Under the pieces are notes generated by a model that was not told the origin of the DNA, did no database searches, and saw only the letters and a list, made by a program, of their open reading frames with translations. From Tamarix chinensis (taxonomy: Eukaryota > Streptophyta > Magnoliopsida > Caryophyllales > Tamaricaceae), in assembly GCA_030549775.1 (NCBI GenBank), contig CM060175.1:77346245-77410244 (forward strand): 64,000 nucleotides of DNA. Direction: 5' to 3'. The translations under genes and the position numbers were made by a program. This document shows, piece by piece, positions 1 to 55,854 of this stretch (positions are counted from its first letter, which is position 1; every line of letters begins with the position of its first letter).

Positions 1-2433
1 CCCTTTACTTCTAAAATTTCCATAATAGCCTTTTTACTTACAAAATTACCATAATATCCTTTTACTTACAATTTACCATTTTACCCTTCTCCTCTAAAAT
101 TACCATAATATCCTTTTTCTTACAAAATTACTATTTTACACCTTACTTATAAAATTACCATTTTGCCCTTTATCTCTAAAATTACCATAATACCCTTTTA
201 CTTACAATTTACCATTTTGCCCTTTTATTACACCACTTTTATTAAGTTATCATCACTACATGAATATTAATATTAATACTCCATTCTCATCATCCAATTC
301 CACCAATTATATACTTCAACATAATACTCAGTAACATCCACACATATTAGGCCATACTCTTGCACAAGACATATTACTAAAATGCCCCTAGGGCTCACAA
401 TAATATTATTCATGGATTAATGGTCACAATAACATAATATAACATGGATAAGTACTCAACATTTTCATTAATAACTAAACTCTTTCCTTAAGCAATATTT
501 CCACACATAGCATATAAACTAACATGCTTTCCTTTTTATCAATCACTATAAGTAACTATATATAATATATTAAACAATATATATCATGCAAAATAATATA
601 TTAAAACCCTAATGTGCTAGCATACGTTTATCTATGTGTTTAAGTGGGGTTTAACGATTAGCTTAATTTCTGCACAAATTGAACCTTACAGGTATCCCAG
701 TTAAAGATTCAAGCTTTGATTAGCAAAACTAATACCTAAAAATAATATCAATACTTATCATATTAGGACTTTATAAAACTTAATTAATGAAATAATTAAC
801 TTAAATATTATTATACCTTAAAATCATTAACAAAAATAACCCAAAGGAATGCAACAAATCAAACTACTAATACAACATCAGCTGCATGCAGAACAAGGGT
901 TGGAAGGGGTCAAAGGTGGTGGAAGAAAGGAAGGAATGGGTGTTTTCGGGTTAGGGTTTTAGGGCTAGGAAAGAGGGTAGGTGGGGGAGTATTTAGGGCA
1001 AGGGAAGGGTACAGGGGTCGAGAGGGGGTGTAGGTGGTGGTCGGGGATAGGTTAACGGCAGCTAAGGGTGGTAGTGGTGGTGCCGGCGAGGTTGCGAAGG
1101 TGGATACCAAGGTGGAGGGGCTGAGAAGGAAGGAAAAGGGAGGAGGAAAATGAGGGGTGAGGGGGTTTGTCTCGGCCAGGGAAGGTGTGGGGATGGTAGC
1201 GAAGATTGTAGGGAGGGGTTTGGTGGTTTGGGTGGTGGCAGAGGCGGCGGAACAATGGCGGAAGGAGGAGGTGTAGGGTGGTTGCCGAGAAGGAAGAAAA
1301 AGAAAAGGAGAGGAGGGAGGGGGCTACAGGGGGCTCGAGGGGTGGTGTGGTGGTGCAGGGTGGGAGTAGAAGATGGCAAGAGGTGGTGCAGGCGGTTCTT
1401 ACGGTGGTGGAAGCAGTGGAATGGGGCGGCGGTGCAAAACAGGGGGAAGGGATGAAAGGAGAAGAAAGAGAGAGAAATAAATTGGGATAGGGGAGGAAGG
1501 GCTCAAAAAATGGGCAGGATAAAGCATGGAGAGAAGAAGAAAAAGAAGAGGGAGTATAGGGGAGTAGGTGGTCGGTCGGGGCAGGCTGTAGGGTGGTAGA
1601 CGGCTGGTCAGGTGGCAGGGAGAGGGAAGGGAAGAAGAGAAAGAAGGGGGCATATGTGTTGGGGAGTGTAGGGTTGGTTAGGTCGAAAAGGGATAGGAAA
1701 ACGATGGGGGAGAGAGAGGGAAATAGGGAGAGTAGTAGGGAGGAAGGTAGGTTGCAGGCAGGGTGGTTGGGGAAGGAGGTAGAAGAAGAAAGAAAGGAGA
1801 AAGAAGGGCAGGTCGGGCAAAGGGAAAGAAAGGTGTGGGCTGGCTCGATCGGGGGAAAGGGAGAAAAGAAAAGAAGGAAGGGATTGGGCTGGGTTGGTCG
1901 TGCGGGGGAAGGAAGGAAAAGAAAAGGAGGCCAGGCTGCACGCGGGAAAAGGAGAGGAGGGAAGAGGAGGAATTGGGCCGGCGACCCAGGCATGCGGGGT
2001 GAGGGAGAGAGCAGGATAGGGTCTGGCGACTCCAAGGAAAGAAAAAAGGAAAAAGAAAGAAAGGAGGAAAAAGGAGAAAAAGGAGAAAGAAAAGGAAAAA
2101 GGAAAAAAGAAAAAGGAAAATAGGGAAATTTAAGATAAAATAATTTATGGAATAATAGAATATAATATTTTTGGTAGATAAATAAATTTAATAATTTAAT
2201 ATATGGGTTTAAAAAGGTTAATTTTAGAAAAATATTGGTTTGGAAAATTATTTAAATAAAATAAGTATGATAAAAATAATGAAATAATTATGTTAATGTA
2301 TTAAATATTCATATCCAATTTTATATACTAAAAAATCCATAAAATAATTAAATTAAATAGATTTAAAAGCTAATTTATCCCAAATAAAAGTTATTTATTA
2401 AATTATAGGTTTTTAAAATTTTGGGGGATTACA
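1..2433 (-). mobile_element. Long LTR, minus strand, 3' part beyond window edge
   Basis: Read on the minus strand, an LTR starts at 2433 with TGTAATCCCCCAAAATTTT and runs past the left edge of the window. It has the family layout: an AT-rich start (2140-2433), then a strongly strand-biased tract (purine-rich on plus, about 890-2130), then AT-rich sequence. Positions 1-240 hold degenerate repeats of the type ATTACCATTTTGCCC, as in the palindrome arms. The tract around 600-670 matches the 49600-49680 region of the palindrome (the 'cat.cgttaatc..ttaagcgagatttaacggtta' neighbourhood). The long open frames in the purine tract are compositional. It abuts an integrase fragment of opposite orientation, so it probably inserted into that older element. 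Confidence 0.75.
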
Positions 2434-3999
2434 TCCGTACCGGATAGGCCGAGGATTCTAAGCTAGAGGGGATCCATCTGAAGTTACAGGAAGGCTAGGC
2501 AGAAGGGTTCCAGGTAAATGAAAATGGTAGCCTTCATTACAAGGGCCGATGGTGTGTACCGCATGGATGTTCAGAGTTGAAGCGCCATATTTTGGATGAG
2601 GGACACTAGATCCCTTACTTAATCCACCCAGGAGGGGACGAGTTGTATAAGGATCTCAAGAAGGTGTACTGGTAGCCTCGTATGAAGCGGAAAGTGGCTG
2701 AGTTTGTGTCCTAGTGTCTGACCTATCAGAAGGTCAAAATTAAGCACCGTAGACCTACAAGGCTACTTCAACCCTTAGAAGTGCCAAGGTGGAAGTGGGA
2801 TTCAACCTCCATGGACTTTGTTAGCGGATTGCCAAGGACTCGAAGTGGTTGTAACATCATTTGGGTAATCATGAACAGATTGACCAAATTAGTCTTTTTA
2901 TTCCAATGAAGTCCACTTGGAGTATGGAACAACTAACCAATGCCTATATGAAGTGTGTGGTTAGCCGGCATGGGGTCCCAGAGGATATTGTGTCAGATAA
3001 GGATTCTATATTCCTCTCCCATTTCTGGGAAAAGCTACAAGAAGTCCTGGGATGAAGTTGAAGATGAGTACAACTTTCCATCCTCCTACAGATGGGCAGA
3101 GTGAGAGGACTATACAAAACCTAGAGGACATGTTAAAGGCCTATGTTTTAGATTTTTAGGGTAGTTGGGAAGAGCTCCTGCACTTGATAGAGTTCTCATA
3201 CAAAAACTGCTACCATGCTAGCATAAGGATGACCCCTTACTAAGCATTGTATGGCAGGAAGTGTAGGACCTCCTTGTGCTATAATGACATCAACAAGATA
3301 GTGGTTTTGGGATTTGAGATGATCGAGAAAATAACTAGGTAGATCTACCAGATTCAGGACCGGATGAGAGTCGCTCAGAGCTGTTAGAAGAGTTATGCTA
3401 ACCAGAAGCGCTGGAGGAGTGAATTTGAGCCCGGGAAGAAATTGCTATTGAGGGTTTCCCCCACTAAGGGTGTGTAGAGATTTGGTAGAAAGGGGAAGTT
3501 GAGCCTGAGGTACATCAGGCCCTATGAGATCTTAGAGCGAATCAGAGATGTTGCATACTTGTTGGCACTCCCACTAGAGTTAGCTCGAGTTCACAATGTG
3601 TTCCACATCTCATAGTTGCGAAATTATGTTGCCGATCCTTCCCATGTGATCCTGCCCATGAGCTCAATGATACCCTGGCTTACGAGGAGCGACCTATGTG
3701 GATCCTTGATACTAAGCTCTGAAAGACCCGCATGAGTGTGGTCCATCTCGTGAAGATCCTTTGGAGCTGCCATGGAACCGAAGAAGCAACCTAGGAATCT
3801 AAGAAAGACATACACGAAGCGTATCCAGAACTCTTCTATGTAGGTACAATAGTTCGTAGTAAACCCCTTTTTCTTTCAGGGGTAATAGCATCGCGATTCA
3901 TACTTCTATTATCTGAATCAGCTTAGAATTGCTTTTCCTGTTTCCCTACTCTCAAAAATTAAGCCAATGACTTTGGGGACAAAGTCTTTCTTTAAGGAT
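2434..3999 (+). pseudogene. Ty3/gypsy Tekay/Del-like integrase and chromodomain fragment
   Basis: This is the end of a retrotransposon pol gene, broken by several stops and frame changes. In order I read: the RNase H-integrase linker (about 2450-2590); a degraded HHCC zinc region (about 2600-2740); and the integrase core from about 2790, including the [12 protein letters not shown] stretch, the [16 protein letters not shown] block near 2960-3010 and the TDGQSERTIQ block near 3090-3120. After these come an ALYGRK motif near 3250, a C-terminal stretch ending with a VHNVFHIS motif near 3590-3610, and a chromodomain-like tail (about 3650-3840) ending in YPELF. The first catalytic Asp (usual VVDRLTK) is Asn here (IMNRLTK), besides the stop codons, so it is inactive. 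The chromodomain and block order fit the Tekay/Del lineage of chromoviruses. It runs straight into the long LTR at about 4000, which makes that LTR its 3' LTR. Confidence 0.8.
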
Positions 4000-4845
4000 G
4001 TAGTGATATAATACCCCAAACCTTAATTTAGGAATTAATAATAAAATAGGGATTAATATGTGAGATCAATTAAATACAAAAATTTTAATCAAATAATTTT
4101 AATATAATAAAAGTAATCAAGATAAAAAAAGAGGAAAATAATGTAGGAATTAAATTGGTGGAGGTTAGGGTAATTTTGCTAACCAAAATTGATTTTAAGA
4201 AAATTTAACCACAAATTATAAATTAATATAAAAGAAAAGTTAATTATTTATTTTTACTAATTCTATTGTTTTCAAAAAATTCAAAAAAATCCTAAATACC
4301 CCAACCACCTTATTTTTTTCCTTTTCCTTTTCTTTTTCTTTCGTACTTTTTCTTCTTTTTCTTCTTTTCTCATTCCCCGTCGGTTAGGGCCACGCCTAGC
4401 GCCGCCCAACCCTCTCTTCCTCTCCCTCCTCTCCTTCTTTCTCCCTATGCAGCCCAACCCACCTCTTTTTTTTTCTTTTCTCCTCCCGCGGGATGGTCTG
4501 CCACTTTTTTCCTTCTTGTTTTTTTCCCCCGCCTCGTCGGCCAGCCCCTTCCTCCTTTATTTTTCTTCTTCTTCCTCCCCTGCTTGCCGTTGACCATGTG
4601 CACCTGCAACTCCTGCGCTTGCACCGACCATCCGTCCCTCTCCTTCTCTCCCCCATCCCTTTCCTTTCCTTTTCCATCCCCGACCTCCCCTGCTCGCATG
4701 CACCCCCTCCCTTCCCCTTTCTCCCCCTACCACCTACAGGACTACACCCTACCGCCCTATGCTAGCTGCCACCGCCGCCGACCAGCTACCACCTTCCCCC
4801 CACACACTTGTCCTCATCCCCCTTGTTCTCTTCTCCCCCCATGTC

Positions 4846-8750: not shown

Positions 8751-11700
8751 ACATATGCAACATGAGTTGTGTTTGGATTTTTTTATTAATTTTGGCACTA
8801 TTTAATATATAAGGATAGTTTGGCTATTTTAAATAAAAATTATTATTTTATTTCTCAAATATTAATATGGTATTTGTGATAGTATTTTTAACAAAAAATT
8901 TATAAATGGAGCCTAATCATTTTTAGACGGTTACCGGTAAAGATTGCTTTCGCTGGAAATCATGTAACCTTTATACTCCACTAAAATTTTTGGATATTGT
9001 ATGTTAGCACATTACGGTTTTGACATTTGATTTGTGTTAGATGTGACTTGTTATAATTGTTTATGTGATTATTAATGTTATCTTTGAAAATAAAAAAAGA
9101 AGGCATGTTATCTTGCATAAAATATTATATGTGCGAAAGTGTGATAAAAAGAGGTCTAATGTTGGGAAGTGATGTTGTATGTTACGTGGAGGTAAAAATA
9201 TTAGGTTAAGTATGCATAGACACACCTGTAGAAAAATTATTATCACCATGTGCCCTAAGGGCAATTTGGTTATTTAACCATATTGTGATAATTCACCTTA
9301 ACGGGGATGCTTAATGTGTTATAAATATTGCTAAGATTGGAGATAGGGGTTTATTATCTTGGAAACACATGTTTGAGTATGAACATCAATAATATATGGT
9401 CTAGGTATATTTAAATGTACTATGGTGATTGTTCTAACAAACATGCATGATAAGCATTATTTAATATTAAGTATGAGAATACATTTTTTTGTCTTAGAAA
9501 CATATATTTGAGCAAGAATATTAATAATATATTCTCTAGGGACATTTTGGTAATTTTGCATGTACTATAGTGATTGTTCTAAATAAACTTGCATGATAAG
9601 TATTATTTGATATTAAGTATGAGAATAGGGGTTTGGTGTCTTAGTAATCCATGTTACATCATGACTATTAATAACTTTATGGTCTAAGGGTATTTTGGTA
9701 ATTTTAAGAGTATTATAACGATTATTCAAATAAATATGTATGATGAGTAATATTTGATGACAAGTATGATAATAGGGGTTTAGCTGTATTAGAACCACAT
9801 GTTCCAGTATAATTATAATTATATTAGGGTCTAGGGGTATTTTGGTAAATTGGATTGTACCGTGATAAATATTTTAATAAATATGCATAATATGTGCTAT
9901 TCGTTATTAAGCATGAGTATAGGGTTTTGATGTTTTTGCTATGCCTATTTGAGCATGATTATTATTATTGTATGGTATAGGGGTATTTTGGTAATTTAGG
10001 GTATGCCATAATAATTATTCTCATAAACATGCAAAATGTGCATTATTTGTTGATTAAGCATGAGAATATGTATTTTGATGTTTCAGAAGATGTTGTTAGG
10101 GCTTTAGGTGTACAATGGTATATAAGGAAAAAATGGTCATTTGGCATGTCGGGTAACTTAATTACATGATCAATAATTAAATTATGGTGTGTTATCCTTT
10201 TTATGGCAAGTTGATTAAATAAAATGGATTTTGTAATGGGAATGGATGGTAAAGTGGTAGATTTAGCCTAAGGGGTATTTTGGTCATTTTGACCTAAATT
10301 GTCCAAGTGTGAGTAATCGAGTCTAGGATGGCCTTAGTAGACTTCTAATATTGACATTGATAACAATCTTGATTTTGGTTACCTCTTAATGTTGGAAATA
10401 AATAAAAATGGTTAAGTATGAAGAATTGATTATATGTGATTGATGTGTGCCTTTTGTGGTCATCCTCATAAAATACTAATACTTAAAGTGAAAGACATCG
10501 CTATTGGGAATGGTCGCTACCCTAAGGATGTGGTTTGGTCCACAATTATTATGGATTTTGCTGGTATACCTTAGTGCACCAACTAAACCTTATATCTTAC
10601 TTTATTTAGCTCTATGAACCTAAGTAGGGGTATTTATACTTATGTATTAAGTGTCCTTGTCAGTGGAGTCCTATGTACCTTCGTGTACTAGCGCAATCAA
10701 GGTACTTTTGCATTCCTAGGTTGTTAGTTGGTAAGATATTGTGCTACCTTTATGTGCCAGTATGACTGGGGTACCTTATTGTCTTCGGATTTGTAGCTCT
10801 CCTCCTTGAGAAAATAAAAATGGCAATGTTTGATAATTACATGGAAATTATTATTGGGATAATTTGATAGTAGCCTTTATGCCTACTTGTGAGTTGGTAG
10901 TAGTCTTTATGCCTACCTATAATTTGGTAATAGCATTTGTGCCTACCTATGATTTGGTAGCAGCCTTTATAACTACCCGTGATGATGTGGGTATATTAGT
11001 TATGTTGATGAGCCTACCTATGTATTGAGATGTTGTGGGTTGAGAATTGTACCTGTTGCTATAACTTGAGAATGATGTGACTTTCTAATGATACTACAAA
11101 TAGCATCGTTTGGATGTTCTATTAGTAAGTTTCGGTTATTTTCAGGTGCATGAGTATTGGTGGTATATGGTATTGATGTATGTGGTTATATGAATGAATA
11201 TCACATTTTAGATAATATATGCATAATTAAATGTTCACATATTGTTGTAACTTATTCCATGAGGGCCTTACATATTAGTCTTGTATAACAACTCTGAGTA
11301 CCGTTGTATTGAAGGGTTACCCTCTTGGACCCCTGCTTATTCAATGGGAAGTGGCATTTGTAGGTTAGCTCGCAAGCTCTATTCAAGGACATCCTTTAGG
11401 TTGAGAGTGTTGGGTTATTTGGGTTCTATCTGGTAACTTGAACTAGAAGTTTCTGTATTTCTTATAATCTTTTTATATTTTCCTTTTACTAGCATTTTTT
11501 TTTGTAACCAAAATTAGTGGGTTTTATTTGAAAGGTTAATTTATCTCTTTAACTATTTTGCTACTCTAATTCATAATTGTATTTTTAAATTTAGGTGAAG
11601 TAATGTTTTAGCCTTAACACTTGGTAATGGAATGGTCGAGGAAACCGGTCTCGTACTAAATGTGGCGATAACACCATGAAATTTATTGTCTTAGCTTATG

Positions 11701-30862: not shown

Positions 30863-31660
30863 TAGGGATGGTGATAAGGTTGTAAATGAATTGTGCCAGT
30901 TCGGTATTCGGCTCGGCTCGATTTCTTAAAAGCTCGGTTAAGCTCGTTCATGTAGTTAAATGAACCAAACCCGAGCCTCACTTTGGGGCTTGTTTATTAA
31001 ATGAACCAAGCTTGAGCTTGAAAAAATGAGGCTCGGTTTATTTTTTGACTTTGGCTCGTAAGCTCAGCTCGTTCGTTTAGTTAAACTAGCGGAACTCGAG
31101 CCTTATTTTAAGCTTATTTAGTTAAACAAGTAGAGCCCGAGTCCAGGGATATTCGTCTTGGCTCTACTCATTTATAGCCCTAGATGGTAATAAGACCCAT
31201 ACCCATCAAATCAATCTCATTTTTAATCGATCTCGGTTTATATATATTTAAATGGGAGTAGAACTAGTAGTTTTAGACCCACATCTAATTCACTGCACCT
31301 GATTCGATTCATATCCTCATACATATATAAATACATACTAATATTATGTTTATCATCTTTGTCGTAATCTTGCTCGAGCTGCTCATTCATTTTTTTCAAA
31401 TTTATTTTTTTGTATTTATTTTCTAAGCAGTATGTTATAATATTTTATTTTAAAAGTAATTAAACAGCATTAGAAAAGTTAAAGTAATTATTTTAAAATA
31501 TTTATATTTTTACTTAGAGGATTTTTTTAAACAAAAAATACATATTAAGATATATAAAACATAAACGTATATGTATTTATATAGATTAATTTTTTTAAAA
31601 AAAATAGCAAGACCTATTTAAGACATGTTTAGGATTGGGTTTGGGATATTGTTAGTAACT
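30863..31660 (-). mobile_element. hAT MITE, GGGATGG family, copy 1 (split and degraded)
   Basis: It starts TAGGGATGGTGATAAG, like the intact copy at 41804. After a nested element (30875-31182) it continues. The span 31320-31640 aligns closely with the reverse complement of about 41930-42215, with shared tracts such as CATACTAATATTATGTTT, AATACATATTAAG and TATATAAAACATAAA. The right terminus was not found. Confidence 0.65.
30875..31182. mobile_element. Nested hAT MITE with near-perfect 8-bp TSD
   Basis: 308 bp with termini TAAGGTTGTAAATGA and TCATTTATAGCCCTA (12 of 15 paired). Flanks are GATGGTGA (30867-30874) and GATGGTAA (31183-31190). GCTCGGCTCG and AGCTCGTTC words inside are typical of this plant hAT-MITE type. 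It sits in the first 12 bp of another hAT MITE. Confidence 0.8.
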
Positions 31661-41803: not shown

Positions 41804-42411
41804 TAGGGATGGTAATGGGTCAAGTCTGGGTCGGATCCAGCCATATCCAGACCCAGACCCATTTATATTACCTATACCTAGACCCAACCCAGACCCAAAT
41901 CCACCGGGTCTAGCGGATAAACGGGTCCTAAATGGGTTCGATTATTTTAAAAAAATTATTAATAATAGATGTAAATACAAATACATTTATGTTTTATATA
42001 ACTTAATATGTATTTTTGGTTAAAAAAATCCTCCATGTGAAAAAATAAATATATTAAAATAGTTACGTTAACTTTTTAAATAGTATTTTAATGCTTTTAG
42101 AATATAATATTGTACATATTACTTATAAAGTAAATATATAAAAATAAAATTAAAAAAATGAATAAGGAGCTCAAATAAGATTATGACAATAATGACAAAC
42201 ATAATATTAGTATGCATTTATATATGTATATATATAAACACATACATATATATATACTAAACGGGTCTGGCAAGTAGGGTCTAGGTCTAGAACTACTGGA
42301 CCCAGACGCAGACCCATTAAGGTATATATGGACCTAGACCCGACCCAGACCCGTGAAAAATAAGGCAGGTCTAGCGGTCTGGGTCAGGTCCGAGACCCAT
42401 TGCCATCCCTA
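41804..42411. mobile_element. hAT MITE, GGGATGG family, intact copy
   Basis: 608 bp with termini TAGGGATGGTAATGGGTC and GACCCATTGCCATCCCTA (17 of 18 paired) and a perfect 8-bp duplication TGTGCAAC (41796-41803, 42412-42419). The homologous position in the partner gypsy LTR (about 56135) has no insertion. The interior is AT-rich and non-coding, with GGGTCT/AGACCC subterminal words. Confidence 0.92.
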
Positions 42412-43104: not shown

Positions 43105-44430
43105 TCCTCCCTCTCTTAAAAAACAACCTCCTTGTCTTTGGATGGCTCATCATGAATGTAAGGAAGTAAATCTCTAACATTAAATGTGTTTTATATATCT
43201 CTCATTTTCTTTAGTATCTCCTATTTATACGTGATATCACCAATATTTTCAATAACTTTGAATGGACTATCACTTCTAAGCATGAGTTTGTTCTTCCTTT
43301 TAGAAGGAAATCATTCCTTCATAAGGTGAAGCCAAACTAGATCTCTTGGTTCATACAAGTATTGTCTTCGGTGTTTGTTGGATTTAATCTTGTTCATTTC
43401 ATTTACCCTCTTGATATTTGACCCCACTTACTCACGAAGCTTCTTCATTATCCTAGTCTTTTCTTATGGTTCAAAGTTGGTGTAGGTCTCAATGGGAAGA
43501 GGTAAGAGATTTATGGGAGTATTAGGGTTCACCCTATATACTTTTTCAAAGGGTGAGCATCCTGTAGCATAGGTTGGTGATCAGTTGTAGGAAAACTCGG
43601 CATGTGATAATTTGGTCTCCCAATCCTTCAAATATTTGTGAACCAAACTTTTGAGGAGCATTGTGAGGGTCCTATTTGTGACCTCAGTTTTCCCATCCGT
43701 TTGTGGATGGTAGACATTACTGAATAGAATTTTGGTACTAACTATCCTCCATAAGGTCTTTCAGAAGTAACTAAGGAATTTAGTGTCCCTATCAGAGATA
43801 ATAGACTTAGGAACACCATGTATCTGAACTATCTCCTTAAAGAATATACCGGCTATGTAAGAGGCATCATCCGTGTTATGATAGGAAAATAAATAAGCTA
43901 TCTTACAGAACAGATCAACCACCACCATTATAACATCATTTTGCCTTTGTGTCTTAGGCAATGCTACAATAAAGCCCATACTCACATGATCCCATGGTTG
44001 ATGTGAGAGAGGAAAAGGAGTGTATACCTCCTGGTGGAAGTGACTCATGTACTTTTGATAAGTGACACGCCTAGTTATTATACATTGTATATATCCCCAT
44101 AAGCTTTGGTTAATAAAAATGCTCACTAAGCACATCTGATGTCTTTTTGATGCTGAAGTGTCCAACTAGTCCTCCACCACGCACTTCCCTTATAAGTAAT
44201 TCTATGATGGAACATTTAGGAATGTAAAGTTTGTTATTATTGAAGATGAACCTGTCTTGGATGATAAATGATCCTTTCTTATTGTCTTTATCCTTGAAGT
44301 AGCAACCAAAGTCTTTGTCTTCCTTGTAGAGCTCTCTAATGCACCCAAACCCTAATATTCTCGCCTCTACCAAAGAGAGTATACAATATATCATAGAAAG
44401 TGCATTTAATACTACATTCATTTTACCACT
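43105..44430 (-). pseudogene. Gypsy integrase (decayed)
   Basis: Minus-strand integrase of the 34602-56794 element. The zinc-binding region lies near 44100-44240 (GGGLVGHF motif). The core follows: PWDHVSMGF near 44000, VVVDLFCKIAYLF near 43910, and HGVPKSIISDRDTKF near 43780-43810. A C-terminal stretch near 43200-43400 reads EPRDLVWLH and NTFNVRDLLPY. No chromodomain was recognised. There are several stops. Confidence 0.75.
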
Positions 44431-44850
44431 TTTATTCTTAGATCAAAGGAAAAATATTGCAAACATTCTACCCATCTTGCATACCTCGGATTAAGATTGT
44501 GTTAGCTATTGATGTACTTCAATGACTCATGATATATGTGTAGCATAAACTATTTGGGCCTCAATTAGTGTAATCAAGAGATCTTAATAAAGTGTGGAAC
44601 TCATTATCATATATGTTGTAATTCACCCTATAACCATTGAGCTTTTCACTAAGTAAGTCAATCGACTTCCCTTCTTGTAGTATAATAGCTCTAATGTCCA
44701 CTCCACTGGCCTCACAATCAACCTCAAATAATTTGTTAAATTTAGGTAATGTTAGGATGGGTGTGTTTATTAAATTTACCTTGATCACCTCAAAGGTGTA
44801 TTTGGTTGCCTTGGTCCACTTGAATTCACCCTTCTTCATTCATTCAGTTA
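44431..44850 (-). pseudogene. Gypsy RNase H (decayed)
   Basis: Open from 44839 to 44561. FEVDCEASGVDIRA matches the start of a Ty3-type RNase H (first catalytic Asp present), and YDNEFHTLLRSL matches the downstream acidic motif. A stop separates it from the integrase. Confidence 0.7.
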
Positions 44851-45700
44851 TAAGCGATAGTAGGGTGCTGAAATCCCTAATAAAACTCCTATAAAACAAA
44901 GCCAAACCATGAAAAGATCTTACTTGCGTAAGGCTTGTAGGTGTGGGCCATATCTTGATTTCTTCCACTTTAGATTCATCCACGGTTATGCCATCCTTGA
45001 ACGCCAAAAAAACTAGAAATGTCACCCTAGAAAGAAATAACTCGCACTTCTCTAGCTTGGCATATAACTTGTGATCTCTAAGTTCTAGAAATAAAAGTTT
45101 GAGATTCTTTACATGTTCCTCCTCACTAGAGATATACACAAGAATGTCATAAAAGTAAACTATTACAAAATTTCTAATAAATGACCTAAGTTCCTCATTT
45201 ATAAGTATCATAAAGGTACTATTGGACAAACCAAAGGGTATAACCATCCACTAATACAACCCTCCCTTATTTTTTAATGGAGTTTTCCATTCATCACCAT
45301 ATTTTATTCTTATTTGGTAGTATCCACTCCTTAGGTTAATTTTGGAAATCAAGAATACACCATTCAAAAATTCAAGAATATCATCAAATCTAGGTATAGG
45401 ATACCTTTACTTGATAGTAATGTTGTCGATAGCTATATTATCAATACACATACTTGTGGTGCCATTTTTCTTTGGAACAAGTAAGGCAGGCACGACATAA
45501 TGGTTAAGGGTCTCTCTTATTAAACCTTTATAAAATAATTTGTCTACTTGCCTTTTTAACTCTAAGGCATCCTTAAGGTTACACCTATAGGCCGCCTTAT
45601 TAGGGAGTATGGAAATGGATAAAAAGTTAAGTTGGTTCTCTATGCCTCTAATGGGGGGGAACACATAGGGTAGGTCATTAGAGAATACATCATCAAACTC
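44840..45700 (-). pseudogene. Gypsy reverse transcriptase (decayed)
   Basis: Palm and finger blocks are recognisable: VPALLVPKKNGT near 45450-45490, IPFGLSNSTFM at 45215-45247, YFYDILVYIS near 45140-45160 and VRSFHGLALFYR near 44890-44935. The YxDD catalytic pair is altered (YFYD instead of YFDD). A frame break lies near 45247-45407. It is inactive. Confidence 0.8.
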
Positions 45701-46486
45701 CTCTAATAATGCCCTAACTCACGGCTCATTACAAACCCTCTCTTCATTATCCTCTAATAACAACAACAAGTAGATTACCTTCTCTTTTACTATAGCCTTA
45801 TCTAAATAATTTTTACCTATGAATAAGGACTTTTTACAACTCATATCAATATGACTAGGCCTAGAAAATAAAGGGATGAGTAAAATCTTCTTCTTGGCAA
45901 ACTTCAATCAATAGGTGTCCTTCCTTCCATCATGCAAGACACTTCTATCAAATTCTCATGGTCTCTCCAAAAGTAAATGACAAGCATCCATCGGAACAAC
46001 ATCACACACCACCTCATCTTGATAGGCATTCCCAATGGAGAATGGTACTTCCCCTTGCTTTATAACCTCCACTATGTTACTATCATTAAGCCATTGTAGT
46101 TTTTATGGTTTGTCACGTTTTGGAGTAGTGAGGTCGAGCTTCTCTACTAAGGTGCAAGAAGCAACATTGGCACAACTTCCTCCATCCATAATAAAAGAAC
46201 ATATTGTGCACTTGGTTTGAAAAATATTTTCTCTTTAGGACTCATCACATTCAAACTCCTTCGTGTGCAACAACCTCCTAATCATCAAAGATTCTCCCAC
46301 ATCTGATGGCGCAAACTCCTCTCTATTAATGGCCAAATATTCCTCACTCTCCTCCTCTCAGTTGGCTTCCTCTAAATCTAACATGGTCATTACACTCTTG
46401 TTAGGACATTCATTTTGATAATTTCCCAATCATTGACATTTAAAAGACCTAGCACTCTTGGTTTGATTCTCAAATGCCACTCATTT
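45701..46486 (-). pseudogene. Gypsy protease region and gag zinc knuckle (decayed)
   Basis: The zinc knuckle is readable near 46385-46450 as KCQ-stop-LGNYQNECPNK, a CX2CX4HX4C box with one Cys lost to a stop and the His changed to Asn. Protease-region coding is poorly conserved. The frame upstream is cut at 46486 by the palindrome and resumes at 54793. Confidence 0.55.
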
Positions 46487-47249
46487 TGTAACACCCCCAA
46501 AATTCACTACTGAAAAATTTCGTTTTATTAAAAGATAGTTGCGGAAGCGGTTTAATAAACTGTGAATTTTGGGAGTATTACCGCCACACTTAGCACCAGA
46601 CCGGTTCACTCATACCGTTCCAGTACTAAGTGCTAAGGCTAAAGTTGTTAAATAAAATTTCACAAGAACTTGAGCATTCGAAGATCAGAGTAGCACAGTA
46701 AATACTTTACAAGAGAAAACATTCAATCACGGTGATTACGAAATAACAATACGTTGAATTTAAATGAGACAAATTAAAACCCCTAAAAGAATTTCCGGAC
46801 AGTACCTTACGCTCCCCCCAATGGCCCACTTGAATAGCACCTGAAACACAACCTGCAAGGGGTACTGCCCATTGAATAGGCAGGGGCCCCATGAAGGGAA
46901 CCCTTCAGTACTACGGTACTGAGTAACCCTTTAAAAATACGCTTAAAATACAGGCACACATATTACACATGATACTACTACATTCAGTTATAACCATAGG
47001 TATAAACATGGTATTCAGATCCATTTATTTGTACATCCAATAACTCAATCATACATTAATACTGTATACGTAAAATTCACTTTCATATATTTCATAAATC
47101 AAACAACCAACATCAGATAGGCCATGATCAGTAATCGAGATATTTTTCGGGCCTTGAGGCCATTAATCAAGTGTCTCAATGACTAGTATTTTCCCATAAC
47201 TCATTCACATCTGAAATAAATTTTTATTGAGCTCGGGACCTCCACTATT

Positions 47250-47460
47250 ATTGCCGGTGGACCGGAATATAAAATCATCACCCAGGGCACAACGCTCCTG
47301 GCCACTATTATAACCGGTGGACCGGGATATATATAATCTCATCATCCAGGGCACAACGCTCCTGGCCACTATTATAACCGGTGGACCGGGATATATATAA
47401 AAAAAATCATCACCCAGGGCACAATGCTCCTGGCCATTATTATAACCGGTGGACCGGTAC
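47250..47460 (-). repeat. CCGGTCCACCGG array, left arm
   Basis: Four units on the minus strand, spaced about 55-70 bp, each followed by CCAGGAGCGTTGTGCCCTGG. It mirrors 53825-54050. Confidence 0.8.
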
Positions 47461-48359
47461 TCAATATCATAAATCGCTGGTCCCGGCTCATTAATATTCC
47501 ACTTTCAATTATAGTATCTTTCCTTTCTTAAAATCAGCACAACAACCATATTTATTTTGCCTCGATAGGGAGATCATGAACCCGGGACACAAAGGTACAC
47601 CGGTCGTACTGGTGCGTAAAAGCAACTCAGTCCCTTCAACTAGTAACCCAGGGACGCAAAGGTACCCTGGTCGTACTGGTGCGTAAAGCTAACTCAGTAC
47701 CCTACCGACAAGGACACCTAATCCTTAAGTATGCATACCCCCTAACTAGGTCCGTAGAGCTAGAAAGAGTAGATATAGGGCCTGGCTGGGGCACAAAGGC
47801 ACACCAGCAAATACCAAACAATCGTGGACTAAACCACGTCCTTAGGGTAGCGACCCCTAAGGAGTCACCATTCCCGATCTCGAGGTCTTTCACTTTAAGT
47901 AATAGTGTCTTAATTAAGGGTGATCACAAAAACACAACAAGAAGATAATTATCCTCTTTTAATCGTTCAGATATCATCAGAGATTTCTTATTCAGGTGGT
48001 CAGCCAACATAACATAGGAGCATCAATAAGGCCATCCTAAACTCATCTAATTCCGAATTAAAACTCATTCTCGTGATACTTACTAATCGTCAAACATTCT
48101 TGCCTCGTTAATCAACACTAATAGAGCCATGTCACGAATTCACAATCATAATGATACCCTAGATACAAACTACTTATTTACCACTTTACTTATGAAATCA
48201 TTACGTCACCCTTCCATATTCGATAAATTACCACGTTACCCTCCCTGTTACAAAATCACCAAGTTATCCCTTATTCAATTTAGGTTACTAAATTATTTAT
48301 CATACTTATTAGGACATTAACTCCCCCTTAATAATTTTTTTACACTTAATATACTTTCC

Positions 48360-49340
48360 ATGTGATTGGTTAGATTACCACTTTGCCCCTTTCTCCTTAG
48401 TATAATTAGTAAATTATCCTTGAATTGGTCAAATTACCAAATTACCCTTCCTCCTTATCCTAATTACCAAAATTAACCCTTTATTAAATTAATTACCAAT
48501 TTACCATCCTTTATTATCAATTCCCAACTACCCTTCCTTATTGACAAAATTACCAAATTGCCCTTCGGTTGGTGAAATTACCAAATTACCCTTGCATATG
48601 ATCATAATTACAATTTGGCCCTTCTCTGTTATTAACTTTACCAAATTACCCTTTTGTTATTTAAGTTACCGAATCGCCCTTCTTGTTTATCATAATTACC
48701 AAACTACCCTACTCCATTATCCAAAATTACGAAAATACCCTCCAGTCGGTTAAATTACCACTTACCCCTCACATTTATCATATTTACCAATTTACCCTTT
48801 TCTACTATTAATTATCAAATTACCCTTTAGTTATTTAACTTATTATCTTACTCTTCTCAATAATTATTATTTCCAATTTACTCCTTTCCAATGTTCATTT
48901 TTGCCCCTTTGATTTACACAATTACCGTTTTACCCCTCTACCTTCAAATTTACCATTTTACCCCCTTAACTTCCAAAATTACCATATCGCCCTTTTCCTT
49001 ATAACTTTTCCATTTATCCTTAATTATAAAATTACTATCTTACCTCCTCTAATTTCCAAATTACCATTCCGCCCTTAGATTGCAAAATTATCATTTCGTC
49101 TTTTAATCATAAAATTACTATTTTGCCCTTTAATTACAAGATTACAATTTTGCCCTTTTATTTTAACATTACTAAATTGTCCCTTTATTACAATTTACCA
49201 AATTTCCATTCTTTTTAACAAGATTACCAAATTGCCCCTTTTATATACAAAAATTACTCTTCCATCCTTTGTTCACAAAATTACAATTTTACCCCTACTC
49301 CAAAATCACTATTTTCTCCCTTGATTAACACATTCACCGT
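48360..49340 (-). repeat. AATTACCAAATTGCCCTT minisatellite, left arm
   Basis: About 1 kb of degenerate 24-32-bp units containing AAATTACCAAATTACCCTT (plus strand), roughly 35 units. It mirrors 51945-52925. In other LTR copies the same motif (GGGGTATTTTGGTAATTTT) occurs only a few times and far apart, so it has expanded in this subfamily. Confidence 0.7.
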
Positions 49341-50628
49341 TTTACTCTTAGGCCATACTCATATACAATATACATTATTAAAATCTCCCCCTAATGCTAA
49401 CAAAATGTTACACATGTAATAAAAATCACCATAGCATATCACAACATGGATAATAATTTATATTTTCCCTAACCACCAAATTATTACACAAAATATTATT
49501 CCCATACACATCATCAATCTATCATGCTTCCTTTTCATCAACAACCACATTAACCACATATGATAATGCTAAGTAACATATATCAAGCATAATACATATT
49601 GATAATGCCTAATGTGATAACATGCGTTAATCCATGCATTTAAGCGAGATTTAACGGTTACCTTAATCTCGCCAAAATTACCAAACCTTACCAAGCACAA
49701 TCAGTAATTCAACACACCTGAATAATATCCATCATATACACGTTAGAAATAAAATCCAAGTATCAAACTTTATAAAATTTAATTAGTAAAAATACTTAAT
49801 ATAAAACACCATTATACCTTAGAAATTAGCCAAATCATTTCTTTTCTTTTTTTTCTACATGGAGGAGAGCTCACGCTGCATGAGCAGCGTGAGTTTCATG
49901 CAGAAGAAGAAAGGGGAGAGGCTCGAAGAGGGTGTGAAGTGGGAGGGAGGAAGGGTGGCTCGGTTTAGGGACTTTAGGCTAGAAAAAGAGATAGTTGGGG
50001 GAGGTTCTAAGGCAAGTGGATGGTGCAGAAGTGAAGAGGGGGTGTAAGAGGTGGTCGGGGATGTGTTGCTGGTGGCTAATGGTGGCGGAGGCGGCGGCAG
50101 CAGGGATGCGAAGGTGGCGGCCGAGAAAGGGGTGAGGTGGAGGAGTTGTGAAGGAAGGAAAAGAAGGAGGAAAGATGGAAGGTTTCAAGGGCTGTTTTCA
50201 GCCAAATAATGCCTGGCGGTTATAGAGGGGGTTGCAGGGAGGAGATTGGTGGCCTGGGTGGTGGCAGAGGTGGCCGGACGGCGGCGGAATAGGCGGTTGC
50301 AGGTGGCTCGGTGGTAAGGGAAAACAGGGAGAAAAATGGAAGAAGGGGAGAAAGAGGCTACGGGAGGGTTATTAGGGTGGTGCAGGGTGGTAGAAGAGGG
50401 TGCAGGAGGTGGTTTAGGGGCTGGGTGCGGCGGTCGGATATCGGCGGAGGGCGGCGGCGCACGAACGAAGGGGAGAAGATGGTGGGAGAAAAAATGGGGA
50501 AAAAGGGAGCTCGGGGAAGGAGGTCCGAACTTATGGGCAAGGAAAGGTGGAGAAAAAGGAGAGGGGGAGAGAGAGAGAGAGAGAGAGAGAGAAAGGGACA
50601 GTGTGGCAGGGTGGCGGTTGCAGGCGGT

Positions 50629-50657
50629 CGGCAGCAGCAGGCAGGTCGGCGGCAGTC
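50629..50657. other. Palindrome centre (29-bp spacer)
   Basis: A GC-rich spacer with CAGCAGCAGGCAGG and GGCGGCAG words between perfect inner arm ends GGTTGCAGGCGGT (50616-50628) and ACCGCCTGCAACC (50658-50670). (GA)n at 50571-50592 and (CT)n at 50695-50719 are its mirror-image neighbours. Confidence 0.85.
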
Positions 50658-51944
50658 ACCGCCTGCAACCGCCACCCTGCCACACTGTCCCTTTCTCTCT
50701 CTCTCTCTCTCTCTCTCTCCCCCCTCTCCTTTTTCTCCACCTTTCCTTGCCCATAAGTTCGGACCTCCTTCCCCGAGCTCCCTTTTTCCCCCATTTTTTC
50801 TCCCCACCATCTTCTCCCCTTCGTTCGTGCGCCGCCGCCCTCCGCCGATCCGACCGCCGCACCCAGCCCCTAAACCACCTCCTGCACCCTTCTTCTACCA
50901 CCCTGCACCACCCTAATAACCCTCCCGTAGCCTCTTTCTCCCCTTCTTCCATTTTTCTCCCTATTTTCACCCTTACCACCGAGCCACCTGCAACCGCCTA
51001 TTCCGCCGCCGTCCGGCCACCTCTGCCACCACCCAGGCCACCAATCTCCTCCCTGCAACCCCCTCTATAACCGCCAGGCATTATTTGGCTGAAAACAGCC
51101 CTTGAAACCTTCCATCTTTCCTCCTTCTTTTCCTTCCTTCACACTCCTCCACCTCACCCCTTTCTCGGCCGCCACCTTCGCATCCCTGCTGCCGCCGCCT
51201 CCGCCACCATTAGCCACCAGCAACACATCCCCGACCACCTCTTACACCCCTCTTCACTTCTGCACCATCCACTTGCCTTAGAACCTCCCCCAACTATCTC
51301 TTTTTCTAGCCTAAAGTCCCTAAACCGAGCCACCCTTCCTCCCTCCCATTTCACCCCTCTTCGAGCCTCTCCCCTTTCTTCTTCTGCATGAAACTCACGC
51401 TGCTCATGCAGCGTGAGCTCTCCTCCATGTAGAAAAAAAAGAAAAAGAAATGATTTGGCTAATTTCTAAGGTATAATGGTGTTTTATATTAAGTATTTTT
51501 ACTAATTAAATTTTATAAAGTTTGATACTTGGATTTTATTTCTAACGTGTATATGATGGATATTATTCTTAGGTGTTGAATTACTGATTGTGCTTGGTAA
51601 GGTTTGGTAATTTTGGCGAGATTAAGGTAACCGTTAAATCTCGCTTAAATGCATGGATTAACGCATGTTATCACATTAGGCATTATCAATATGTATTATG
51701 CTTGATATATGTTACTTAGCATTATCATATGTGGTTAATGTGGTTGTTGATGAAAAGGAAGCATGATAGATTGATGATGTGTATGGGAATAATATGTGTA
51801 ATAATTTGGTGGTTAGGGAAAATATAAATTATTATCCATGTTGTGATATGCTATGGTGATTTTTATTACATGTGTAACATTTTGTTAGCATTAGGGGAGA
51901 TTTTAATAATGTATATTGTATATGAGTATGGCCTAAGAGTAAAA

Positions 51945-52925
51945 CGGTGAATGTGTTAATCAAGGGAGAAAATAGTGATTTTGGAGTAGGGGTAAAATTG
52001 TAATTTTGTGAACAAAGGATGGAAGAGTAATTTTTGTATATAAAAGGGGCAATTTGGTAATCTTGTTAAAAAGAATGGAAATTTGGTAAATTGTAATAAA
52101 GGGACAATTTAGTAATGTTAAAATAAAAGGGCAAAATTGTAATCTTGTAATTAAAGGGCAAAATAGTAATTTTATGATTAAAAGACGAAATGATAATTTT
52201 GCAATCTAAGGGCGGAATGGTAATTTGGAAATTAGAGGAGGTAAGATAGTAATTTTATAATTAAGGATAAATGGAAAAGTTATAAGGAAAAGGGCGATAT
52301 GGTAATTTTGGAAGTTAAGGGGTAAAATGGTAAATTTGAAGGTAGAGGGGTAAAACGGTAATTGTGTAAATCAAAGGGGCAAAAATGAACATTGGAAAGG
52401 AGTAAATTGGAAATAATAATTATTGAGAAGAGTAAGATAATAAGTTAAATAACTAAAGGGTAATTTGATAATTAATAGTAGAAAAGGGTAAATTGGTAAA
52501 TATGATAAATGTGAGGGGTAAGTTGGTAATTTAACCGACTGGAGGGTATTTTCGTAATTTTGGATAATGGAGTAGGGTAGTTTGGTAATTATGATAAACA
52601 AGAAGGGCGATTCGGTAACTTAAATAACAAAAGGGTAATTTGGTAAAGTTAATAACAGAGAAGGGCCAAATTGTAATTATGATCATATGCAAGGGTAATT
52701 TGGTAATTTCACCAACCGAAGGGCAATTTGGTAATTTTGTCAATAAGGAAGGGTAGTTGGGAATTGATAATAAAGGATGGTAAATTGGTAATTAATTTAA
52801 TAAAGGGTTAATTTTGGTAATTAGGATAAGGAGGAAGGGTAATTTGGTAATTTGACCAATTCAAGGATAATTTACTAATTATACTAAAGGAGAAAGGGGC
52901 AAAGTGGTAATCTAACCAATCACAT
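51945..52925 (+). repeat. GGGCAATTTGGTAATTTTG minisatellite, right arm
   Basis: Mirror of 48360-49340; degenerate 24-32-bp units. Confidence 0.7.
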
Positions 52926-53824
52926 GGAAAGTATATTAAGTGTAAAAAAATTATTAAGGGGGAGTTAATGTCCTAATAAGTATGATAAATAATTTAGTAA
53001 CCTAAATTGAATAAGGGATAACTTGGTGATTTTGTAACAGGGAGGGTAACGTGGTAATTTATCGAATATGGAAGGGTGACGTAATGATTTCATAAGTAAA
53101 GTGGTAAATAAGTAGTTTGTATCTAGGGTATCATTATGATTGTGAATTCGTGACATGGCTCTATTAGTGTTGATTAACGAGGCAAGAATGTTTGACGATT
53201 AGTAAGTATCACGAGAATGAGTTTTAATTCGGAATTAGATGAGTTTAGGATGGCCTTATTGATGCTCCTATGTTATGTTGGCTGACCACCTGAATAAGAA
53301 ATCTCTGATGATATCTGAACGATTAAAAGAGGATAATTATCTTCTTGTTGTGTTTTTGTGATCACCCTTAATTAAGACACTATTACTTAAAGTGAAAGAC
53401 CTCGAGATCGGGAATGGTGACTCCTTAGGGGTCGCTACCCTAAGGACGTGGTTTAGTCCACGATTGTTTGGTATTTGCTGGTGTGCCTTTGTGCCCCAGC
53501 CAGGCCCTATATCTACTCTTTCTAGCTCTACGGACCTAGTTAGGGGGTATGCATACTTAAGGATTAGGTGTCCTTGTCGGTAGGGTACTGAGTTAGCTTT
53601 ACGCACCAGTACGACCAGGGTACCTTTGCGTCCCTGGGTTACTAGTTGAAGGGGACTGAGTTGCTTTTACGCACCAGTACGACCGGTGTACCTTTGTGTC
53701 CCGGGTTCATGATCTCCCTATCGAGGCAAAATAAATATGGTTGTTGTGCTGATTTTAAGAAAGGAAAGATACTATAAATGAAAGTGGAATATTAATGAGC
53801 CGGGACCAGCGATTTATGATATTG

Positions 53825-54050
53825 AGTACCGGTCCACCGGTTATAATAATGGCCAGGAGCATTGTGCCCTGGGTGATGATTTTTTTATATATATCCCGGT
53901 CCACCGGTTATAATAGTGGCCAGGAGCGTTGTGCCCTGGATGATGAGATTATATATATCCCGGTCCACCGGTTATAATAGTGGCCAGGAGCGTTGTGCCC
54001 TGGGTGATGATTTTATATTCCGGTCCACCGGCAATAATAGTGGAGGTCCC
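53825..54050 (+). repeat. CCGGTCCACCGG array, right arm
   Basis: Four units starting near 53829, 53898, 53960 and 54021. Each has CCGGTCCACCGG, TATAATAGTGG (or TATAATAATGG) and CCAGGAGC..GCCCTGG. Confidence 0.85.
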
Positions 54051-54637
54051 GAGCTCAATAAAAAATTATTTCAGATGTGAATGAGTTATGGAAAATACTA
54101 GTCATTGAGACACTTGATTAATGGCCTCAAGGCCCGAAAAATATCTCGATTACTGATCATGGCCTATCTGATGTTGGTTGTTTGATTTATGAAATATATG
54201 AAAGTGAATTTTACGTATACAGTATTAATGTATGATTGAGTTATTGGATGTACAAATAAATGGATCTGAATACCATGTTTATACCTATGGTTATAACTGA
54301 ATGTAGTAGTATCATGTGTAATATGTGTGCCTGTATTTTAAGCGTATTTTTAAAGGGTTACTCAGTACCGTAGTACTGAAGGGTTCCTTCATGGGGCCCC
54401 TGCCTATTCAATGGGCAGTACCCCTTGCAGGTTGTGTTTCAGGTGCTATTCAAGTGGGCCATTGGGGGAGCGTAAGGTACTGTCCGGAAATTCTTTAGGG
54501 TTTTAATTTGTCTCATTTAAATTCAACGTATTGTTATTCGTAATCACCGTGATTGAATGTTTTCTCTTGTAAAGTATTTACTGTGCTACTCTGATCTTCG
54601 AATGCTCAAGTTCTTGTGAAATTTTATTTAACAACTT

Positions 54638-54706
54638 TAGCCTTAGCACTTAGTACTGGAACGGTATGAGTGAACCGGTCTGGTGCTAAGTGTGGCGGTA
54701 ATACTC
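54638..54706 (+). other. Conserved 3' LTR stem-loop (right arm example)
   Basis: CACTTAGTACTGGAACGGT pairs with ACCGGTCTGGTGCTAAGTG (14 Watson-Crick pairs plus G-U wobbles in 19), followed by TGGCGGTAATAC. Equivalents are at 11609-11675, 18896-18962, 24486-24550, 38961-39027, 41592-41660 and 46575-46645 (minus). It lies about 85-155 bp before the LTR end. Confidence 0.7.
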
Positions 54707-54792
54707 CCAAAATTCACAGTTTATTAAACCGCTTCCGCAACTATCTTTTAATAAAACGAAATTTTTCAGTAGTGAATTTTGGGGGTGTTACA

Positions 54793-55854
54793 CATTTACT
54801 CCTCACATCTTTTGTCAAAGGTGTGGAAGGGGTTTTTAATGGTGGAGGAACCTCCCTTAAGATTCTAGCTCCCTTCTTTGGGGCTCCATACCTTACAGAT
54901 CTATTCTCCTTTTTATATTTTTTGACCTTTATGGCTAAATGATAGAGCTCATACAAGGTATAATACCTATGCATCTACACCTTCATAGTTATGGCATGCC
55001 GAAGACCACCAAGGAACCGATGCATAGTATACTCCTATAGCTCATCCAAAATATCTAATGTACTTCTATGTACTCAATGACCCTCTCTTCAAAGAGGAAA
55101 TTTTTTTGCACAAGTCTTAAGTTAAAGAAGGAGGAAGGAATCTCTCCTTCATCTACTTCTTCATTTTCAACCAATACTTAAATTTTTTACTTTTCCTTTT
55201 TTCTCCTCTTATGAACTAAATTCTCCCACCATAATAAGGCATGGACTTTGAGCTTAAGAACTTCCACCTTAAAGGCTTTGGTGTCGGAATAGCCCTTGGC
55301 CTCAAACAATCTACTACACCTCAACATCCACTCTAAAAAATCTTTGAGATTGTGATTGCCTTCAAACTCCTAGACCTTGGCCCTAACATCATGAAAACTC
55401 TTTCCTTTTTTTATTCCTCTTCCGTGGATCCATATAATACTCACTTGAGGATGAATCTTCCCCATCCTCACTACCAATATACTATACATCCCCATATAGG
55501 TCACAAAATGGGAGTGTTGTTTTTTGTTGGTCTCAGGCCATATTAGGGATTATGGTCTCCAAGATATCAATCACTTTTCTCATATCATTTTAAAGAGACT
55601 TAATGGATCTATCCCTTCTTAAATTATTTGTTTCCTCAAGGCTCAACCCTCTTGGTAAGGAAGGTCTCACATTGAAGATTAAGAAAATTAAGAAGGCTAA
55701 TAAGAGAAAATAATTTTGGTTAAGGGTAGAAAAAATGATATTAGGTTCAAAACAAAAGGGGGTGTTTGGTTCAAAATGTTTTTTGGTGTGTGGGTGTTTG
55801 CTTTAGAAAAGGATTATGGGAAGACAAAATAATGTCCAAATTAATACAACCTAA
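54793..55854 (-). pseudogene. Gypsy gag (decayed)
   Basis: A minus-strand gag domain is readable in shifting frames between about 55560 and 54950. Blocks seen include EFEGNHNLKDFLEWM near 55320-55370, AFKVEVLKLKVHALLWWENL near 55210-55275, and KERFLPPS near 55135-55155. The frame continues to 54797 and, with the palindrome and one CATTT removed, runs on into the zinc knuckle at 46486. Stops are present. Confidence 0.75.

Follow-up and report, generated by a model that had tools for sequence, protein, structure and literature searches.

We describe here an 8306-bp palindrome, made from one kind of long terminal repeat (LTR), in the genome of Tamarix chinensis. It occupies positions 46487-54792 of a 64,000-nucleotide stretch of contig CM060175.1 (hereafter the window, C5:77346245-77410244 of a searched genome of 1.32 Gb in 28 contigs), and we consider it probable that it arose once, when reverse transcription of a gag-only retrotransposon of the Ty3 type, equipped with very long LTRs, went astray and the resulting product was integrated. 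A BLAST self-comparison of the window identified the region as an inverted repeat of a single LTR over its full length. Together with the alignment of the two arms and the reading of the flanks, this confirmed the preliminary description of the locus, made from the sequence alone, as an inverted LTR unit with CATTT at both sides. Its parts are as follows (window positions).

46482..46486, no strand: left copy of the target duplication CATTT, 5 bp; the site is present as a single copy in 4/4 fetched relatives of the host element.
46487..50628, minus strand: left arm, the 3' part (~4.14 kb) of the LTR with its U5 end at 46487; its plus strand is taken as the original minus-strand complementary DNA (cDNA).
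50621..50628, plus strand: CAGGCGGT, first half of a natural 8-nt inverted repeat and putative annealing partner.
50629..50657, plus strand: loop of 29 nt, natural LTR sequence continuous with the left arm, non-palindromic.
50658..50665, plus strand: ACCGCCTG, the other half of this natural repeat and putative 3' end (primer) of the minus-strand cDNA.
50666..54792, plus strand: right arm, copied from the left arm and reading in the sense direction of the LTR, with its U5 end at 54792.
54793..54797, no strand: right copy of CATTT, 5 bp, immediately after the right U5 end.

Compared by BLAST with its own reverse complement, the region gave 8335 columns at 98.99% identity with 50 gap openings, the arms being ~4.14 kb each and ~99% identical. 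The arm alignment proposed as a check in the preliminary description (MAFFT) has 4119 identical columns out of 4172, 18 mismatched cells and 23 gap runs. Five of the mismatches fall in the non-palindromic centre, nine in shifted clusters beside micro-indels, and four are single unclustered substitutions outside the centre (columns 327, 715, 3150 and 3438 of the arm alignment); 21 of the gap runs are also outside the centre, 16 of them of 1 bp. At substitution rates typical of plants, four substitutions in ~4090 bp would correspond to a rough age of ~38,000-70,000 years. The two long, nearly identical LTRs initially proposed stand as far as the similarity of the arms is concerned, but they are truncated: by comparison with a relative on contig C4, each lacks the first ~540 bp, the 5' part that includes the TATA-like boxes. 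Internal region, primer site and polypurine tract are all missing from the palindrome, and the single open reading frame (ORF) scanned within it (250 aa) gave no Pfam match.

The nature of the palindrome ends can be established from normal copies of the same family. In one of them (L033/L034) the LTR starts with TGTAATCCCC, is ~4.75 kb long and ends with GGTGTTACA, and both a primer site and a polypurine tract are present. Normal 5' LTRs pass from GGTGTTACA directly into ATATGGTATCAGAGC, which contains the primer site for a transfer RNA (tRNA-Met), and the normal 3' LTR is preceded by the polypurine tract. Since the primer site directly follows the 5' LTR and the polypurine tract precedes the 3' LTR, GGTGTTACA is the U5 end. 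The palindrome reads TGTAACACC at its left end and GGTGTTACA at its right one, exact at the terminal TG/CA, and judged by the normal copies both outer termini are U5 ends, in agreement with what had been suspected. The U3 end seen in normal copies (TGTAATCCCC or TGTAATGCCCC) is not found in the palindrome, which lacks the U3 start. The internal region of L033/L034 (~1.75 kb), whose longest ORF is a gag of 326 aa (Retrotrans_gag, E 8.1e-19, in this one copy), is too short to hold a full pol. Judged from this one copy, the source family would thus belong to the TR-GAG-like elements and would need reverse transcriptase and integrase in trans.

Both termini also carry the marks of integration. The sequences flanking the palindrome on its two sides differ, apart from the shared CATTT, and exact 5-bp duplications are likewise present in 3/3 normal copies with both outer flanks examined (GTATG, CTCCC and GTAGG). 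The locus has therefore what is expected of an insertion by integrase, a duplication of the length typical of the family and exact TG/CA ends, but departs from the usual pattern of one U3 and one U5 end, both being U5. Normal 5' LTRs have ATA and the primer site after U5, and neither end of the palindrome retains them; a loss of the bases between LTR and primer site would be expected from integrase processing. The empty site could be recovered at the DNA level from relatives of the host element, which were searched with the first of the two following regions.

54798..55197, minus strand: host element sequence to the right of the insertion, query for uninterrupted relatives.
43764..45250, minus strand: fragments of the host Ty3-type element, interrupted by stops; the palindrome lies on its 5' side.

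We fetched the four best of 39 other matches to this right flank and all of them (4/4) are contiguous across the site with one copy of the 5 bp, so that 8306 bp plus 5 bp were inserted with no loss seen. Pfam matches in the host were above the cut-off for RNase H and reverse transcriptase and below it for integrase and a zinc-finger (zinc-binding) domain, and on these matches the host is a Ty3-type element, old and broken up by stops, that lies on the minus strand. The use of two U5 ends by integrase, advanced in the preliminary description, gains support from the combination of two U5 termini without the primer-site side, the duplication and the intact empty site.

The centre of the palindrome provides the remaining evidence. 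Window positions 50621-50665 read CAGGCGGT, 29 nt and ACCGCCTG, the 29-bp spacer noticed originally being exactly 50629-50657. This whole stretch is identical in 3/3 fetched close LTR copies (on C4, C3 and C11; 98-99% over 331 bp), in which it is continuous with the left-arm side; they diverge only past ACCGCCTG, running upstream where the window locus turns back. A genome search with the 96-nt centre found 172 candidates, of which 40 were scored. Only the window locus matched it in full, and the other 39/39 matched positions 1-71 (38 copies) or 3-71 (one copy), ten of them at 100%. Position 71 of the centre is window position 50665, the final base of the repeat. Since all the other scored copies stop matching there, the left arm and the loop are the natural side, and this comparison places the new junction at 50665|50666. 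A proliferating family of palindromes can be rejected, the window locus standing alone among the 40 scored of 172 candidates. More distant copies read CAGGCGG...CCACCTG at the repeat site, so not every copy has a perfect inverted repeat. When the DNA fold of the cDNA end is predicted, its last 8 nt on the 3' side form base pairs. A self-primed minus-strand cDNA is expected to turn where the LTR has a natural inverted repeat, its 3' end lying within the stem, and this is what we find here.

Along these lines, a sequence of events can be proposed. A minus-strand cDNA primed by tRNA-Met would have run through U5 into the LTR and halted at ACCGCCTG, ~540 bp inside the LTR start. Its ACCGCCTG 3' end would then have annealed to CAGGCGGT across the 29-nt loop and primed synthesis back along the minus-strand cDNA as far as its U5 end. 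In one form of this scheme a single strand folds on itself, and the resulting hairpin must still be opened and copied. In the other, two minus strands within one particle would pair at both repeat halves, each priming on the other, which would yield at once a linear duplex with U5 at both ends, the loop mismatch being resolved later. Both forms give the same sequence, and we lean slightly towards the two-strand form because it needs fewer steps. Integrase, presumably supplied in trans, would finally have trimmed the two U5 ends of the bases that separate LTR and primer site and joined these ends to the target DNA with a 5-bp stagger. In the C4 copy the turn corresponds to LTR position 542 and TATA-like boxes are located upstream of it, at 105, 119 and 178, by which the arm can be part of a strong-stop product. 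The preliminary description had suggested that self-priming, strand switching or hairpin formation gave rise to an inverted double-LTR cDNA, which was then integrated; the natural 8-nt inverted repeat at the centre bears this interpretation out, and the direction of synthesis, the breakpoint and the primer can now be added to it, as can the arm that served as template.

If such products form repeatedly, other units with U5 at both outer ends might be found. We looked for opposite outward-facing ends in a sample of 220 listed positions (40, 40, 40 and 100; 193 distinct), a small sample that gives no genome-wide rate. The three lists of 40 consist of the candidates scored out of 5837, 7133 and 4006, and the list of 100 covers C1 only, being the first 100 of 6275 matches and free of mismatches. 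Opposite outward ends less than 20 kb apart were present at three places, the window locus, C10:79345129-79354827 and C1:44309243-44323157. At the last one, the pair C1:44309243/44323114 represents ordinary opposite neighbours with a duplication match of 1/5. The C10 unit (9699 bp; L031 5129 to L032 4827) has U5 at both outer ends, and the same outer end can also be paired with its middle LTR. In element orientation it consists of the following parts.

1-1696: inverted 1.7-kb LTR end.
1694-1771: polypurine tract and first ~66 bp of the LTR.
1766-3444: 1.68-kb LTR end, followed by primer site and internal region.
5068: second polypurine tract, followed by an LTR that ends at 9699.

The three LTR ends of this unit are 99.6-99.8% identical. 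Its flanks, GTCCT and GTCGT, match at 4/5 positions, which would happen by chance in ~1.6% of random pairs if base frequencies were equal. Here a minus strand may have continued beyond U3, entering the polypurine tract before it primed on a minus-strand LTR, so that the C10 unit tentatively fits the same idea as the window palindrome and suggests a rare but repeated side-route. In the search for further U5-U5 units that had been recommended, the palindrome centre was found at no other scored copy, and one possible second unit came up, with the 4/5 duplication just mentioned.

Several observations weigh against the origin that we propose. The C10 unit is not clean, its duplication being imperfect, which leaves one clean palindrome among the copies and ends sampled. 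Compared with shuffled sequence, the predicted hairpin shows no gain in stability (z -0.63). The cDNA stop lies ~330-410 nt short of the place where the TATA-like boxes would predict a start site, which calls for a pause or trimming that is unproven. The remaining points concern the arms. When these were compared with 13 LTR segments from 11 places, most of the differences outside the centre were private to one arm, and the differences fit a single template. Still, relatives show both arm states at substitution 703 and at the 1-bp indels 796, 1677, 1881, 3236 and 3823, sites that leave room for two slightly different templates. In addition, the inner 331 bp of the arms are only 97% alike, lower than elsewhere, and several other loci are 97-99% identical to the right arm in this region. 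This last doubt is removed by six of these loci that we have fetched and aligned: columns 144-323 include 12 at which the arms differ, and all six copies side with the right arm at 11 of them and with the left arm at one (317). Of the other inner differences, three (columns 69-71) are in a variable TC run and one is at the cut end. The extra inner differences are best explained, from this alignment, by a left arm that changed later or was misread, and not by a second template.

The alternative that survives best, unlikely as we judge it, is a joining of two molecules. Two LTR-bearing cDNAs, broken near the same place on the U3 side, would have been joined head to head outside the chromosome by microhomology end joining and integrated through their U5 ends. 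The 8-nt ACCGCCTG shared across the junction could act as microhomology and not only as a primer. Nevertheless, end joining requires two independent breaks within 37 nt and near-identical sources, and priming at the natural inverted repeat covers both needs in one step.

An origin within the chromosome, in which an ordinary insertion became palindromic later by replication template switching or by inversion, is much less probable. Replication template switching also employs short interrupted inverted repeats, and in this respect the centre of the palindrome would suit it. Amplification of inverted repeats by an origin-dependent process has been studied in yeast (PMC4689423). An arm copied in the chromosome should, however, run through U5 into the left flank. 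The preliminary description had regarded arms extending into unique flanking sequence as one finding that would speak against it; the right arm ends precisely at CA with CATTT next to it, and the flanks differ. The host sequence of the right flank is, moreover, contiguous with the left flank in the four relatives. The exact second U5 end and the target duplication contradict a chromosomal origin, and the original judgement that neither a solo LTR nor a genomic inversion is adequate holds on these same grounds. A solo LTR is rejected also because there are two inverted copies, each without its first ~540 bp, and no single complete LTR. A terminal inverted repeat or foldback transposon is rejected as well, the arms being a known LTR and the centre being found nowhere else among the scored copies.

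We give even less credit to an artefact of assembly or sequencing, such as a fold-back read. Nanopore sequencing reportedly has trouble in calling inverted duplicates (PMC7229812). The arm differences are indeed mainly 1-bp indels (16/21 gap runs), as read errors would give. But fold-back reads mirror the flanks too, and those of the palindrome differ; nor would such an artefact create a second exact U5 end beside a target duplication. The 1-bp indels are in any case a weak sign of a misread palindrome because one normal LTR pair (L039/L040) has 39 gap openings; the other two normal pairs, L033/L034 and L035/L036, account for 2 and 4. Uneven base calling may touch the assembly generally, beyond the inverted repeat at 46487-54792.

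Finally, a pair of independent LTR insertions, oppositely oriented and accompanied by deletions, can hardly be entertained. Ends of the family number in the thousands (3188 + 3087 matches to the 44-nt U5 terminus when up to 3 mismatches are allowed), ordinary opposite neighbours such as the C1 pair do occur, and the inner 331 bp of the two arms (97%) are no closer than the right arm is to several other loci (97-99%). But the outermost 493 bp of the left arm are 99% identical to the right arm and 96% to the best other scored copies, and the exact 5-bp duplication, the intact empty site and the junction at a natural inverted repeat speak against two insertions.

The self-primed cDNA that we favour is unusual as a product, and its underlying chemistry is known in outline. 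Fold-back extension of minus-strand cDNA was reportedly studied by Guo (1997) and by Driscoll and Hughes (2000), both cited in PMC5198506. The 3' end of minus-strand cDNA that folds back at a hairpin of the LTR region and is extended is described as an aberrant side product, reduced by nucleocapsid (PMC4668388). The window palindrome shares with that side product the turn at a hairpin and differs in that only the palindrome is a double-U5 form that was integrated and inherited. It preserves, as a fossil in the genome, the outcome of a reverse-transcription side reaction known mainly from HIV-1 test-tube work, and implies that the integrase of a plant retrotransposon can pair and join two identical U5 ends. 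For retroviruses, palindromic LTR-LTR junctions are reported to be cut by integrase (PMC1905944). The two cases are alike in that a palindromic LTR-LTR arrangement is handled by integrase, but the window palindrome is centred inside the LTR and has its U5 ends outermost, unlike the U5-U3 junction of the retroviral case. The latter is a circle junction.

Among plant elements, those of the TR-GAG and large retrotransposon derivative (LARD) type are non-autonomous LTR elements, the former being defined by LTRs, a primer site, a polypurine tract and a gag ORF with no pol. One copy of the source family resembles them in its ~4.75-kb LTRs, its ~1.75-kb internal region and its gag as longest ORF, whereas the palindrome, with no internal region, primer site or polypurine tract, is a by-product and not a member of the class. 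Solo LTRs, which arise by recombination, likewise consist of LTR sequence with a 5-bp duplication and no internal region, but have one U3 and one U5 end instead of two U5 ends and no U3 start. DIRS-type elements and foldback transposons have inverted terminal repeats, a feature shared by the palindrome, which differs from them in its LTR arms, its centre unique among the scored copies and the lack of a Pfam match in the one ORF scanned. Among the titles and abstract openings listed we found no integrated U5-U5 LTR palindrome; most subscription journals lay outside this search and we do not claim absence from print. Standard LTR finders expect direct LTRs, so U5-U5 units may be overlooked.

The event also provides a one-step route to long inverted repeats, which feed both genome instability and silencing by hairpin RNA. 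Going further, and as a speculation that we hold only tentatively, plant Ty3-type particles might regularly make U5-U5 cDNA by mutual priming of minus strands at short inverted repeats, and their integrase might accept two U5 ends as an ordinary pair. This would be a rare standing route that seeds near-perfect LTR palindromes and hybrids like the C10 unit, and the palindromes, once transcribed, would yield double-stranded RNA directly, by which the family they come from could be silenced.

Some minor observations were made along the way. In the window, four more-diverged U5-type ends of the same kind are found on the plus strand (8750, 11753, 39112 and 41745), in a part that has tandem units containing GGTCCACCG and CTATAATAGTGGCC. 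Elsewhere in the genome, three same-strand U5 ends (C1:41802216, 41809241 and 41816267) are spaced 7025 and 7026 bp apart, a spacing that resembles a tandem LTR-internal-LTR-internal-LTR array, and four closely similar same-strand LTR ends at C4:35054381-35065591 are arranged in tandem in steps of 2677, 5357 and 2679 bp. One LTR of an element on C6 (L048, ~3810-4316) has an insertion of ~0.5 kb, absent from the partner LTR, with ends TAGGGATG...CATCCCTA and GTCATTGG repeated at both sides; it is apparently a transposon that landed after the retrotransposon. A further element in the window, at 41804-42411, has ends TAGGGATGG...CCATCCCTA and an 8-bp duplication, TGTGCAAC, at both sides. We take it to be a probable hAT-like miniature transposon, and an inverted stretch related to it is found at 31319-31631.

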